DNA from: Candidatus Aminicenantota bacterium
GTDB lineage: Bacteria; Acidobacteriota; Aminicenantia; UBA2199
NCBI GenBank assembly: GCA_020355945.1
Contig: CP070627.1
Coordinates: 1,611,533-1,618,474, forward strand
DNA length: 6,942 bases
Direction: 5' to 3'
Below are positions 3,018-6,583 of this stretch, in pieces (position 1 is the first letter of the stretch; each line of letters starts with the position of its first letter). The notes under the pieces were generated by a model that was given only the letters and a program-made list of their open reading frames with translations, ran no database searches and was not told where the DNA came from. Position numbers and translations under genes: made by a program.

Positions 3018-3662
3018 TTAAATTGACAGTTCTTTGTCTTTGTTTTCCGCTTTAGGTTTCTTTTTACTATGGGAATAAAATTCTGTCGCAATGATTTTCC
3101 CATTATATTGTTTATTCTGGTATTTATACCCGTTGTTGTAGCGGAAAAGTGCCAAAAACATATTCCCTGAAGCCTCTTCATAGTAATGTTTCAATATGGT
3201 TAATCCCAGGTCAATGTTGTACTCTTTTTCAAAAATCCTGTTGAAATCAATGTTGAGTTCATCTTTCCAGACGGAATAGTTCACCTGCATCAGGCCGTAA
3301 GCGCCGACCGGGGAAACCGCGTATTGATCGAAGCCGCTTTCCACCTGGATCACAGCCATGATCAAATAGGGATTAAACCCGTATTTTTTGCTTTTCTTAA
3401 AGACGATTTTTGCGACTCGCGAAAAATCCGGGTCCCTCAAATTGAAAACATTCTCCCTGAACCGGTAGAACTCGATCTTTTCTTTCTCTTTTTCGTAATA
3501 GGTTACTTTTTCTTCCAGGTGGGCTGCGTTTTGAGTCAACTTAGAGATGGTTTCCTGGTTTTCTCCTTCCTGTTTTGCCAGGTCCGCTATAGTTACCGTT
3601 AGCAAAACCGTCGATACTGTCAACACTAAAAATAAAGCTCTATATATTCTTTTAAGGTTCAT
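3018..3662 (-). CDS. Signal-anchored lytic transglycosylase (SLT/GH23 type)
   Basis: 214 residues. It has a hydrophobic N-terminal signal or anchor (about 9-27 after MNLKRIYR) and a charged, probably coiled-coil stretch (30-66, rich in Glu and Lys). An SLT-like catalytic domain follows from about 78 to 190. Family motifs are clear: the catalytic glutamate E108 in 'VIQVESGFDQYAVSP', the 'GAYGLMQV' block at 120-127, and 'RYNNG' at 174-178, where YNAG is usual. The enzyme should cleave the peptidoglycan glycan strand between MurNAc and GlcNAc, forming 1,6-anhydro-MurNAc, outside the cytoplasmic membrane. A basic tail (KKKPKAENKDK) ends the protein. A weak AGAGAG site lies six bases before the ATG, below a consensus promoter. 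The following gene on the same strand has a different role, so I infer no functional link. Confidence 0.88.
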   Translation of the reverse strand: MNLKRIYRALFLVLTVSTVLLTVTIADLAKQEGENQETISKLTQNAAHLEEKVTYYEKEKEKIEFYRFRENVFNLRDPDFSRVAKIVFKKSKKYGFNPYLIMAVIQVESGFDQYAVSPVGAYGLMQVNYSVWKDELNIDFNRIFEKEYNIDLGLTILKHYYEEASGNMFLALFRYNNGYKYQNKQYNGKIIATEFYSHSKKKPKAENKDKELSI

Positions 3663-3668
3663 TGAATT

Positions 3669-3674
3669 CTCTCT
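3669..3674 (-). promoter_or_regulatory. Weak ribosome binding site (AGAGAG on the minus strand)
   Basis: AGAGAG sits six bases before the transglycosylase ATG. It is only a partial Shine-Dalgarno match, in contrast to the strong AGGAGG sites of two other genes here, but it supports the start at 3662. Confidence 0.5.
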
Positions 3675-3701
3675 TAGCTTTACTATAAAATTTAACGGGT
3701 G

Positions 3702-3730
3702 ATTATATTAAATAAACGACAAGATGTCAA
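3702..3730 (-). promoter_or_regulatory. Perfect consensus sigma70 promoter of the transglycosylase gene
   Basis: The minus strand reads TTGACA (3730-3725), exactly 17 bases, then TATAAT (3707-3702), with no mismatch to consensus. Transcription would begin near 3695, giving a leader of about 33 bases. The -35 box lies 14 bases from the left copy of the 63-base inverted repeat. Confidence 0.85.
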
Positions 3731-3744
3731 GTTTTTTTTGCTTC

Positions 3745-3807
3745 CCAGGGGGGCTCTTTTCGAGAAAACCGCCCCGTGAAGCATCTGTACCCCCTGCAAA
3801 AGCTTTT
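3745..3807 (-). repeat. 63-base dispersed repeat, left copy (inverted relative to the right copy)
   Basis: Its reverse complement matches 4374-4436 at 61 of 63 positions by eye. The two differences (G/A and C/T in the minus-strand reading) fall in the half near the transglycosylase promoter. It begins with the palindrome AAAAGCTTTT. Read on the minus strand it contains AGGGGG, five bases, then ATG, and an open frame MLHGAVFSKRAPL. That frame continues past the repeat and stops near 3692, so here it would make only about 30 residues and is probably not a gene. The same phase is open in the right copy. No target-site duplication is visible outside the pair. Confidence 0.9.
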
Positions 3808-3897
3808 GATTAATTTCATTCGTCTCCGGGCGCAAAAAGGTGCCAGGCGTGCCAGGCCGATTTTTTCCGTGGGAGTTTTGAGTATGCACTTTACGTC

Positions 3898-4338
3898 TTG
3901 AAGAACGACCGCTTCCGGTCAGTAGGCAGTTCAGTAGATGACATAAGGAGTTGGTTGGCCCTCGGCGGCATCAGCCTGGTAAGGGAGCACCTCAACAACC
4001 AGATGGAGATATGTGGTTTTTCCCCGGACAAAAAAGCGGCAGTTAACGATTTCTTGGAGCAACTGGTGCGAGACAATCGACGCCAGCTTTTGGAGTTGAT
4101 GGCAGAGGGAATCCTACCTCCAATAAAACAGGATTGGCTCTCGGCTTGCGGGCTGTCAGGGATGCAGTTTGAGGATTTGTTGAGAAGGATACTGGCAGGA
4201 GAAAGGCCATTTGAAGACTGGATGCATGCCAATGGTCACAGCGACGAGGAGATAGCGGAGGTCTATCGCAAAATCGACCAATGGCTGATGCAGAAAGGCA
4301 TTATTCCACAGCCACCCCCTGACCCCGGCTCGAACTGA
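3898..4338 (+). CDS. Uncharacterised, mostly helical protein between two inverted repeats; start uncertain
   Basis: The frame is open from 3814 to the TGA at 4336-4338. The only plausible early start is a TTG at 3898 with no clear ribosome binding site; the next in-frame ATG is about 35 codons on ('NQMEICG'), so the gene may be 5'-truncated or remodelled at the left repeat. The 146-residue product looks like real protein: amphipathic helices such as AAVNDFLEQLVRDNRRQLLE and FEDLLRRIL, conserved-looking 'HSDEEIAEVYRKIDQWL', and a proline-rich tail QPPPDPGSN. I see no membrane segment, signal peptide or catalytic motif and do not recognise a family. It ends 58 bases before the preferred start of the STAND ATPase gene on the same strand. 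It could be an adaptor or effector-associated module for that ATPase; this is inferred from position. A passenger gene or the remnant of a longer gene is equally possible. Confidence 0.55.
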   Translation: MKNDRFRSVGSSVDDIRSWLALGGISLVREHLNNQMEICGFSPDKKAAVNDFLEQLVRDNRRQLLELMAEGILPPIKQDWLSACGLSGMQFEDLLRRILAGERPFEDWMHANGHSDEEIAEVYRKIDQWLMQKGIIPQPPPDPGSN

Positions 4339-4373
4339 GGCCCAATAACAAACAAGGCGAAATAACAAAAATA

Positions 4374-4436
4374 AAAAGCTTTTGCAGGGGGTACAGATGC
4401 TTCACGGGACGGTTTTCTCGAAAAGAGTCCCCCTGG
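4374..4436 (+). repeat. 63-base dispersed repeat, right copy, read through by the STAND ATPase gene
   Basis: Inverted partner of 3745-3807 with two mismatches in 63. Between the copies lie 566 bases holding the 146-codon ORF. This copy contributes AGGGGG and the ATG at 4397, and its frame runs in phase into the ATPase coding sequence. Terminal inverted repeats of a small mobile unit are one reading. Two independently placed copies of a dispersed element is another, and I favour it because there is no transposase and no target duplication. Confidence 0.9.
4386..4391 (+). promoter_or_regulatory. Ribosome binding site carried by the repeat (AGGGGG)
   Basis: AGGGGG lies five bases before the ATG at 4397, the best Shine-Dalgarno-like site near the start of the ATPase gene. 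The alternative starts, TTG at 4382 and ATG at 4442, have no comparable site. It is inside the repeat. Confidence 0.5.
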
Positions 4437-6583
4437 CCGATATGCTGGACACCAACTACCAGCGCGCCCCGGAAATCGTGAGTTCCATCAAATTTCCCAA
4501 CGGGGATATCCCCTCCAAATGGCGGGGCCGGCAGGCCATTACCGGTTGGTACCTGGATGAAAAGGATAGGATTATCCTGCAAGCCCATCCCAAACCGGGA
4601 GAAATCGACGCGGTTCTTACACTTAAGGCCATGATGAAGGAAGAACTGGCCCTGATTTCCGCCCATCTTAAACAATATGGTTTTCCCGCGGACCTGGGGG
4701 ACCTGGATTTGGGCGATGTGTTTATTAAATCCCACCTGGAAAAAAAAGCCAAACTGGACCGGCCCTTTCCAGGAATGGCCTTTTATACCCAAAGGGAATC
4801 GGACATTTTCAAAGGCAGGGATAAGGAAATCGAGGATTTAGTTACCCAGGTAAGCTGTTGGCCCATTACACTGCTGGTGGGAGAATCCGGCGCGGGTAAA
4901 ACCTCGTTGATACATGCTGGTCTTTTTCCCAGACTGGAGGTCATGAAGTGGAAGTATACATGGACCAGGCCCTTTGAAAAGCCAGAAGAGTACATAAAAA
5001 AAACCCTATGGCACGAATTTTTGGAAGGAAAAGTGGAGGAGAAAAAGAGTCTCCTGGAGGTCTTGAAACTAGCGGCGGCAAAATGCAAACCCCACTGCTT
5101 ACTGGTGGTGATGGATCAATTTGAAGACATATTAAATTGCAGTGTACCGGAAATCCTGGAGGAGTTTTGGATGCAAATGGTGGCGGTGCAAACCGGGACT
5201 GTTATCCCCAATCTCAGGGTATTAATATCCTTTCGCGAGGATGCCCTGGTTAAATTGAACTCGCGGTTATTCAAGAAAATCACCGGCTCGGCCCGGGGTT
5301 TTCCCTTTGTCGAGTTGGAACGATTGACCATCGACGGCGCCAGGGCTGCATTATTGGCAGGATTGGAACATGCCGGCCTCGGCATAGATCCGCGCCAGGA
5401 AAAAGTACAAAGACCATTGATCGATATCATCCTCGACGATATCCGACAAGGAGAGGACCGGCTCTATCCCCCTTATATCCAGGTGGTAGCTGAGACTCTG
5501 TGTCGAAAGGTAGATCCGGATAAACCTGTCATTACCGGGGATATTTACTTCCACCAACTCAACAGCGCAAGTCATATCATTGCCCGTTATTTGCTGGAGC
5601 GATTGAAGGAATTCGGCTCTGGGGAAGAGAAAGCCAAAAAAGTTCTCATTTGCTTAACCTCCTCCCAGGGTAAAAAAGCCAGGAAAAGCTTGCGTGAATT
5701 AAGTCCAGAAACGGGGATAGGAGTAGAAGAGTTGAAAACTATCATGAAAGAAATGATCGATATGCGAATGGCCCGGGCAGCCGGTGAGGACGAATTTGAA
5801 ATCATCCACGATTACCTGGCCCGGCTTGTAGATGAGGAATTGGAGTTGGCAGAAGATCGAACTGTTAAGTTTTTGCATGAACTATTGGAATCCTATCGAC
5901 TGATATATGCTGCCCATAAAGCACCGATTATGTCACCGCCTTTTTTGGCAAATTTATATCGATACCGTGTAAAGATCAAAATAGGTGAAGAAAAATATCT
6001 CCTTATTTTATGTACCTGTCTAACTAAAAAAGTTGGGCTGGGTTGGTATTGGTTGAAAGATATTGAAAAGCCGCAAATGCTGGAAATGTTAAAAACGCAT
6101 ATCTCCCATGGAAAAGAAGATATTCGAGAAGAAGCTTCTAATGGATTTGTACTTTTGGCTGCCCCGGAGGATAAAGAGAACATACTCAATATGCTGTGGG
6201 ATGAAAACTGGTATGTCAAGCAAGCGGCTGGAAAGGCATTAGGAAAGATAGCCACACCGGAAGATCGGGATACAATCATCGATATGCTGAAGGATGGAGA
6301 CTATTATGGAAAGCAAGCGGCTACAGAGGCATTTGTAAAGGTAGCCACACCGGGAGATAGGAAGAAAATCATTGAAATGGTGAAGGATGAAGACATAGAC
6401 ATAAAAAAAGCAGGAGTATACGCATTTTTAAAAATATCCGGACCTGGGGACCACGAATACTTATTGGATCTATTGGCTGAACAATGCCAGGGTTGGAGTG
6501 AAGAAGACCTGGAAATATTTGAATTATTATCTGAAGTGGACAAAAGGTTGTACTGTCCATATTATGAAGAAGAAAAGGGTTAG
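4397..6583 (+). CDS. nSTAND1-like P-loop NTPase with C-terminal HEAT repeats (putative conflict/signalling ATPase)
   Basis: 728 residues from the ATG at 4397 (733 from a TTG at 4382). Residues 1-13 come from the 63-base repeat. Residues about 16-120 form an alpha/beta region I cannot assign. The NTPase module starts with 'FYTQRESDIFKGRDKEIEDL' (129-148), matching the 'F.GR..EI..L' entry of nSTAND1 domains. It continues with Walker A GESGAGKTS (162-170, K168), Walker B VVMDQFED (D240), an arginine in 'LISFRED' (R280) at the sensor position, 'YPPYIQVVAETLC' (357-369) and 'IIHDYLA' (469-475), comparable to the HE/HD.L motif closing the winged-helix part. From about 556 to 714 there are four to five HEAT-like repeats of 31 residues, a likely ligand-sensing scaffold. 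Family knowledge: STAND ATPases oligomerise on ligand binding and switch on an attached effector, often in phage defence or programmed cell death. No nuclease, TIR, protease or transmembrane effector is visible here, so the effector may be the unknown N-terminal region, a neighbour, or lost. The 3' third looks more AT-rich than the ATPase part. Confidence 0.85.
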   Translation: MLHGTVFSKRVPLADMLDTNYQRAPEIVSSIKFPNGDIPSKWRGRQAITGWYLDEKDRIILQAHPKPGEIDAVLTLKAMMKEELALISAHLKQYGFPADLGDLDLGDVFIKSHLEKKAKLDRPFPGMAFYTQRESDIFKGRDKEIEDLVTQVSCWPITLLVGESGAGKTSLIHAGLFPRLEVMKWKYTWTRPFEKPEEYIKKTLWHEFLEGKVEEKKSLLEVLKLAAAKCKPHCLLVVMDQFEDILNCSVPEILEEFWMQMVAVQTGTVIPNLRVLISFREDALVKLNSRLFKKITGSARGFPFVELERLTIDGARAALLAGLEHAGLGIDPRQEKVQRPLIDIILDDIRQGEDRLYPPYIQVVAETLCRKVDPDKPVITGDIYFHQLNSASHIIARYLLERLKEFGSGEEKAKKVLICLTSSQGKKARKSLRELSPETGIGVEELKTIMKEMIDMRMARAAGEDEFEIIHDYLARLVDEELELAEDRTVKFLHELLESYRLIYAAHKAPIMSPPFLANLYRYRVKIKIGEEKYLLILCTCLTKKVGLGWYWLKDIEKPQMLEMLKTHISHGKEDIREEASNGFVLLAAPEDKENILNMLWDENWYVKQAAGKALGKIATPEDRDTIIDMLKDGDYYGKQAATEAFVKVATPGDRKKIIEMVKDEDIDIKKAGVYAFLKISGPGDHEYLLDLLAEQCQGWSEEDLEIFELLSEVDKRLYCPYYEEEKG
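6158..6436 (+). repeat. Three 93-base tandem repeats coding HEAT units
   Basis: Units begin at 6158, 6251 and 6344 and code 31 residues each, with pattern (A/T)P.DR..I..ML.D......KQAA..A..K(I/V). Similarity is visible at DNA level: units 2 and 3 share GCCACACCGG followed by a near-identical GAGAT/AAGAT context, and units 1 and 2 share AAGCAAGCGGCT at the same phase. This points to fairly recent unit duplication. Flanking units (about 6062-6157 and 6437-6538) are more diverged. Confidence 0.75.

Follow-up and report, generated by a model that had tools for sequence, protein, structure and literature searches.

The long inverted repeat pair in the window, by which we mean the whole stretch of 6,942 nucleotides of Candidatus Aminicenantota DNA that was analysed, most likely represents two dispersed copies of a hairpin repeat that border a rearranged region, and not a mobile unit or a switch; we assign this reading a probability of roughly 0.74. 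The repeats would have arrived through their own dispersal and would subsequently have acted as, or marked, endpoints of deletions or rearrangements, with the right junction possibly formed via a common stretch of 7 nt (CTGGCCG). The gene scrap left between the repeats would be debris of the rearrangement, and the inverted orientation of the repeats would then be incidental. Two genes are truncated here, a member of a 172-aa family between the copies and an HD-CE/nSTAND1/HEAT gene to their right, and both truncations have their edges at or near the repeats. The coordinates of all features are given in Table 1. What appeared to be a plausible switch or transposon candidate would be explained as debris around dispersed repeats, and was likely a false lead taken from sequence alone.

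Table 1. Features in and around the inverted repeat pair, in window positions.
Feature	Position	Strand	Remarks
SLT-domain (lytic transglycosylase-like) gene	3018..3662	-	PF01464, E 1.2e-21
Sigma-70-type promoter-like site, 12/12, facing SLT gene, 14 bases from left arm	3702..3730	-	consensus scan only
Left repeat unit: hairpin core and CAAAAGCTTTTG inner end	3745..3820	+	inner end probably runs on to ~3829
Remnant of 172-aa-family gene, codons 14 to 172 and stop, no genuine start	3859..4338	+	88.7% to P0002 over 159 aa
Right repeat unit, subvariant as in left unit (GTGAAGCATCTGTA)	4361..4436	-	63-nt core = 4374-4436
728-codon frame from ATG inside right repeat, length as stored protein P0121	4397..6583	+	start putative
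HD-CE/nSTAND1/HEAT gene without first 159 codons	4433..6583	+	numbering of P0122; 158 by P0143
CTGGCCG common to the outer end of the repeat and to the intact gene, possible junction microhomology	4433..4439	+	

The preliminary description had reported two oppositely oriented copies (3745-3807 and 4374-4436), identical at 61 of 63 positions and with 566 bases between them, and a repeat search of the window bore this out. The inverted-repeat search extended the arms to 76 nt each, 91% complementary and with 540 nt between them. This pair is far beyond chance, since the runner-up inverted pair in the window is only 26 nt long at 73%. Within these 63 positions the arms differ only at two, and these two pair with each other in the hairpin stem of the family, as G-C in the left and as A-T in the right arm. 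When folded as DNA, the window arms performed no better than shuffles (z 0.35 and 0.09), because GTGAAGCATCTGTA occupies the place of the outer part of the stem. Searching the window against Rfam with gathering thresholds gave 0 matches. In the protein collection, the proteins of the window map to a contig of 9.13 Mb. It had further been stated that there is no transposase and no visible target duplication. Both points held: a Pfam scan of the seven window proteins returned neither a transposase nor a recombinase domain, and no target duplication around the pair was visible by eye.

Relatives were reached via the 172-aa gene (14 loci), then via the phylum of one of its matches (396 genomes) and then via the class to which the best aldo/keto reductase match belongs (142 genomes). 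In this nearest class the 76-mer had matches in 9 of 142 genomes (E <= 0.01). Five of these (G484 and G487-G490) showed best E-values of <= 6e-10, and the other four contained matches of 21-37 bases only, some of which may be due to chance. A core pattern of 20 nt, searched with up to 2 mismatches and with the reversed pattern as control, was found 182 times in G487, 34 times in G490, 31 times in G489, 15 times each in G484 and G488, and twice in G485, compared to 0 or 1 control matches per genome (1 in G487); the outgroups G107 and G342 gave 0 each. The repeat is a short palindrome at high copy number, as measured in the relatives. The clade of relatives that bear it probably belongs to Candidatus Aminicenantes. 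The genome richest in copies, G487, is probably a MAG of Candidatus Aminicenantes, given that its HD-CE gene (L102) resembles by eye the protein P0143, which is so named. Two exact patterns of the repeat core gave 0 matches in viral contigs, and the family was not described in the literature that we searched. Y1_Tnp was detected in eight of nine genomes, among them G107 and G342, which are free of the repeat; the exception was G489, in which the repeat has 31 matches. The presence of the repeat does not follow Y1 (RAYT-type) transposases.

The core of the repeat comprises roughly 55-65 nt. Copies consist of an outer end (often GCCTCCGGCGG), a hairpin of the form CCAGGGGGGC..TTTTCGAGAAAA..GCCCCCCTGG, a C run and the inner CAAAAGCTTTTG; the inner extension of the left window unit also occurs in two G487 copies (L041 and L118) and in the peptide of P0205. 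Among 44 distinct units, the stem contained 32 double-change cells vs 14.7 in shuffles and 71.4% paired cells vs 66.7%, values that 0 of 500 shuffles reached in either case, and it should be kept in mind that the copies are related and that such kinship inflates these counts. Extra pair types in the stem of the same units showed no excess over chance, as 171 of 500 shuffles reached the observed value. As DNA, the consensus sequence of the family gives a good fold (z -2.85). In two places of G487 (C390, 8471-8640, and C631, 36310-36472) a common insert of ~97 nt was observed inside the hairpin, representing a longer structured form of the repeat. Locus L047 of genome G451 (1501-1524) holds a 24-nt match at 96% to the GCCCCGTGAAGCATC part of the left arm, which lies outside recognisable units and may be due to chance. 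Regarding the subvariant, GTGAAGCATCTGTA is encoded by three short ORFs on other metagenomic contigs and, in a shortened form, by a fourth, and the idea that it is unique to the window pair was rejected on these grounds.

The arrangement of the copies was analysed in 756,466 bases of G487, in which 65 units or outer ends were identified (35 with both marks, 16 with the outer-end motif only, 14 with the profile only). On this sequence the profile gave 49 matches at E <= 1e-3 vs 3 on the reversed sequence, and the outer-end motif 51 vs 5. Profile matches at E <= 0.1 were distrusted, with 33 vs 11 in the reversed control over 365 kb. All six neighbour pairs separated by no more than 64 bp were tail to tail, and these short doublets represent a genuine form of the repeat family. 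Two pairs at 143 and 245 bp were oriented <> in one case and >> in the other. Between 300 and 1500 bp we found four pairs of mixed orientation (two <>, one >>, one ><), where random placement predicts ~6 by our own arithmetic. Since this is mixed and near the random expectation, a pair at 566 bp as in the window is what scatter gives. The suggestion that the pair might be two copies of a dispersed genomic element was supported by the many scattered copies in related genomes, by the lack of a preferred orientation at the window's spacing in G487 and by the short ORFs that encode the subvariant on other contigs. Copies in the relatives are scattered, which by the preliminary description's own reasoning counts against a unit as well as a switch. 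From a hand-made list of 18 units, which left out minus-strand shadows and copies cut short by an end, six lay wholly inside stop-to-stop frames of at least 200 codons (three of them in NRPS genes), against a background in which such frames make up 78-95% of the sequence.

The arms in the window are themselves tail to tail, like the short doublets, and this speaks against the preferred reading, as do the poor folding of the window arms and the lack of an empty site at the loci compared. The tail-to-tail arrangement would fit a non-autonomous composite unit. In this view the two arms would form the termini of a single element, a kind of REPIN-like doublet whose loop is enlarged, which carries the 172-aa gene or has captured it and is mobilised as one piece. 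A single paired event of this kind would also fit the near-identity of the arms and the one subvariant they share, which in nine relatives did not rise beyond control level (two matches with 2 mismatches vs one control match). However, the wide spacing of the arms far exceeds that of any doublet seen, no target duplication is visible, the enclosed gene is without a start, neither a second copy of the whole as a unit nor a mobiliser has been identified, and the short ORFs that encode the subvariant elsewhere come without the 172-aa gene.

The enclosed gene bears on this alternative as well. A single 146-codon ORF had been described between the arms, and a frame does run from 3898 to 4338 with a TTG start. 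This TTG is just the first one in frame, there is no in-frame start before it, and the ORF is without a genuine start, given that homology to the 172-aa family already begins at codon 14 (nt 3859) and continues to the stop without a frameshift. The left repeat copy lies ~30 nt from this remnant. The family comprised 165 proteins at E <= 0.001, of which 120 were listed. It was found in 0 of the 142 class genomes, in a search that had no positive control within the class and whose query matched 14/14 genomes elsewhere, and the repeats therefore occur without the 172-aa family. Each of these 14 genomes, which were chosen for having the gene, contained one match, several of them partial. The dN/dS ratio was low in most comparisons, at 0.12-0.16 for five of the six pairs, whereas the most similar pair gave 0.48. 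Two loci (L001 and L003; 6001-6507) carry near-identical genes within unrelated flanks, with 96.7% DNA identity over 517 bp, corresponding to the ORF plus the 12 nt before it, and no other match listed between the loci. Judged from such sequence comparisons, the 172-aa gene looks like a single-ORF mobile gene, and its apparent horizontal mobility is a further point for a composite unit. Inverted repeats of at least 16 nt were however absent around the gene at four of five loci, and the fifth (L004) has two short ones. Taken with the points above, we regard a composite unit as unlikely.

The function of the 172-aa protein was approached by several searches. Among 19 members, Pfam gave weak matches only (best E 0.0014, in at least one of them), and comparison with PDB sequences gave nothing convincing (best E 0.13). 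Nor did Foldseek with the structural model (mean pLDDT 85.7), in which no solved fold reached E <= 0.001 (best E 0.58). The protein is predicted from the model to be all-helical. Neither a single-sequence nor a profile search found the family in viral contigs, and it was not found in phages; one relative (43.7%) is located on a Calothrix plasmid.

To the right of the pair, the repeat copy is joined in frame to the truncated HD-CE/nSTAND1/HEAT gene. The nSTAND1 domain (PF20703) was detected with 112.8 bits vs a curated cut-off of 27.1 (E 3.8e-32), and HEAT repeats were found by Pfam in the same ATPase. Relatives of 1214 and 902 aa with 60-80% identity align from residues 160 and 159 onward, and homology in the window begins at codon 18, that is at nt 4433, a few bases before the right arm ends. 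The lost N-terminal part holds the HDIGK stretch of P0122 and P0143. When the 396 genomes of the phylum were searched with P0122, a full-length relative of the ATPase, 0 matches were obtained at E <= 1e-30; this search had no positive control. In the junction region the orthologue L101 reads CCTGGCCGATATG and the window CCCCCTGGCCGATATG. CTGGCCG is present in L101 and in 13 of 49 repeat copies and is absent from the orthologue L102; a microhomology at the right junction is possible from this comparison, resting on one of two orthologues.

The truncations also weigh on the proposal that inversion between the copies could act as a switch, in which recombination between the arms would flip the enclosed segment relative to the ATPase gene. 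An inverted repeat of 63 bp is long enough for general recombination, and two weak promoter-like sites (9/12) to the left of the arms point toward the pair. On the other hand, the putative payload has lost its start and first 13 codons and the neighbouring ATPase gene ~159 codons, the seven window proteins include no recombinase domain, and copies in the relatives are scattered. A consensus scan of 3600-4600 gave four promoter-like sites, all of them left of the arms and none between them, and the sole 12/12 match faces away from the pair. Because both neighbours are 5'-truncated, no promoter-like site lies between the arms and the only 12/12 site faces the SLT gene, we consider a switch very improbable. 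On the left flank, an empty site was not found among the SLT matches at seven loci compared with the window, and the ATPase gene was absent beside SLT in both loci whose ORFs were read (L111 and L114).

Some copies of the repeat are read through by genes. Out of 97 distinct units, a non-random sample, 10 lie in frame just before a YKTGDLARW-like motif ([YFH][KR]TGDLAR), and all 10 are open; they derive from G485, G487, G489 and G490 (loci L042, L052, L067, L069 and L072, three places on C554 and two on C562 of G487). This count was obtained with a looser motif and offset than a stricter first count of 6/97. In all 10 cases the gene lies on the minus strand of the unit. We take the site, from its motifs, to be the linker of NRPS adenylation domains. 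A repeat family that combines paired stem changes with in-frame residence in NRPS linkers would make it possible to test how palindromes enter genes and leave them unbroken.

In another reading, the right arm would have been inserted into, or fused with, the HD-CE/nSTAND1 gene in frame, and a working chimeric protein would be made from the ATG of the repeat. The 728 codons from this ATG are open, the gene lies on the minus strand of the unit as in the 10 NRPS cases, and a G-rich stretch precedes the ATG. The HD part with its HDIGK stretch is gone, though, and a recent truncation would look identical, so a chimeric protein appears unlikely to us. Equally unlikely is a broader version, in which a coding-compatible palindromic family would remodel proteins: it would land in frame in NRPS adenylation linkers, and in the window a REPIN-like doublet would have trapped a single-ORF mobile gene, with a start and N-terminus supplied by the repeat taking the place of the HD domain in a conflict-type nSTAND1 NTPase and the new protein still being made.

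Several known systems resemble parts of this arrangement. With nSTAND1 NTPases that have HD-CE and HEAT regions, the window gene shares nSTAND1 and HEAT repeats, but it is without approximately the first 159 codons, HDIGK stretch included. With its inverted repeats flanking a short segment that has no transposase, the pair recalls MITEs and composite transposons; unlike in these, there is no visible target duplication, most copies in G487 are single units and no partner transposase was identified. Compared to REP sequences and REPINs (PMC3116915, PMC3733652), the window family is likewise a short hairpin repeat at high copy number, mostly outside long frames in our sample, and it forms close inverted doublets in a relative (G487). 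It differs in that GTAG was found in 1/44 and CGTC in 2/44 units, on either strand, at the foot of the palindrome, that its presence does not track that of Y1 (RAYT-type) transposases, and that the arms of the window pair are much farther apart than the doublets. Rickettsia palindromic elements (RPE; PMC10969869) are similar in that palindromic units are read through in frame inside genes, whereas the window family has a core of ~55-65 nt vs ~150 bp in RPE, belongs to a different lineage, and its in-frame cases counted here were confined to one kind of site.
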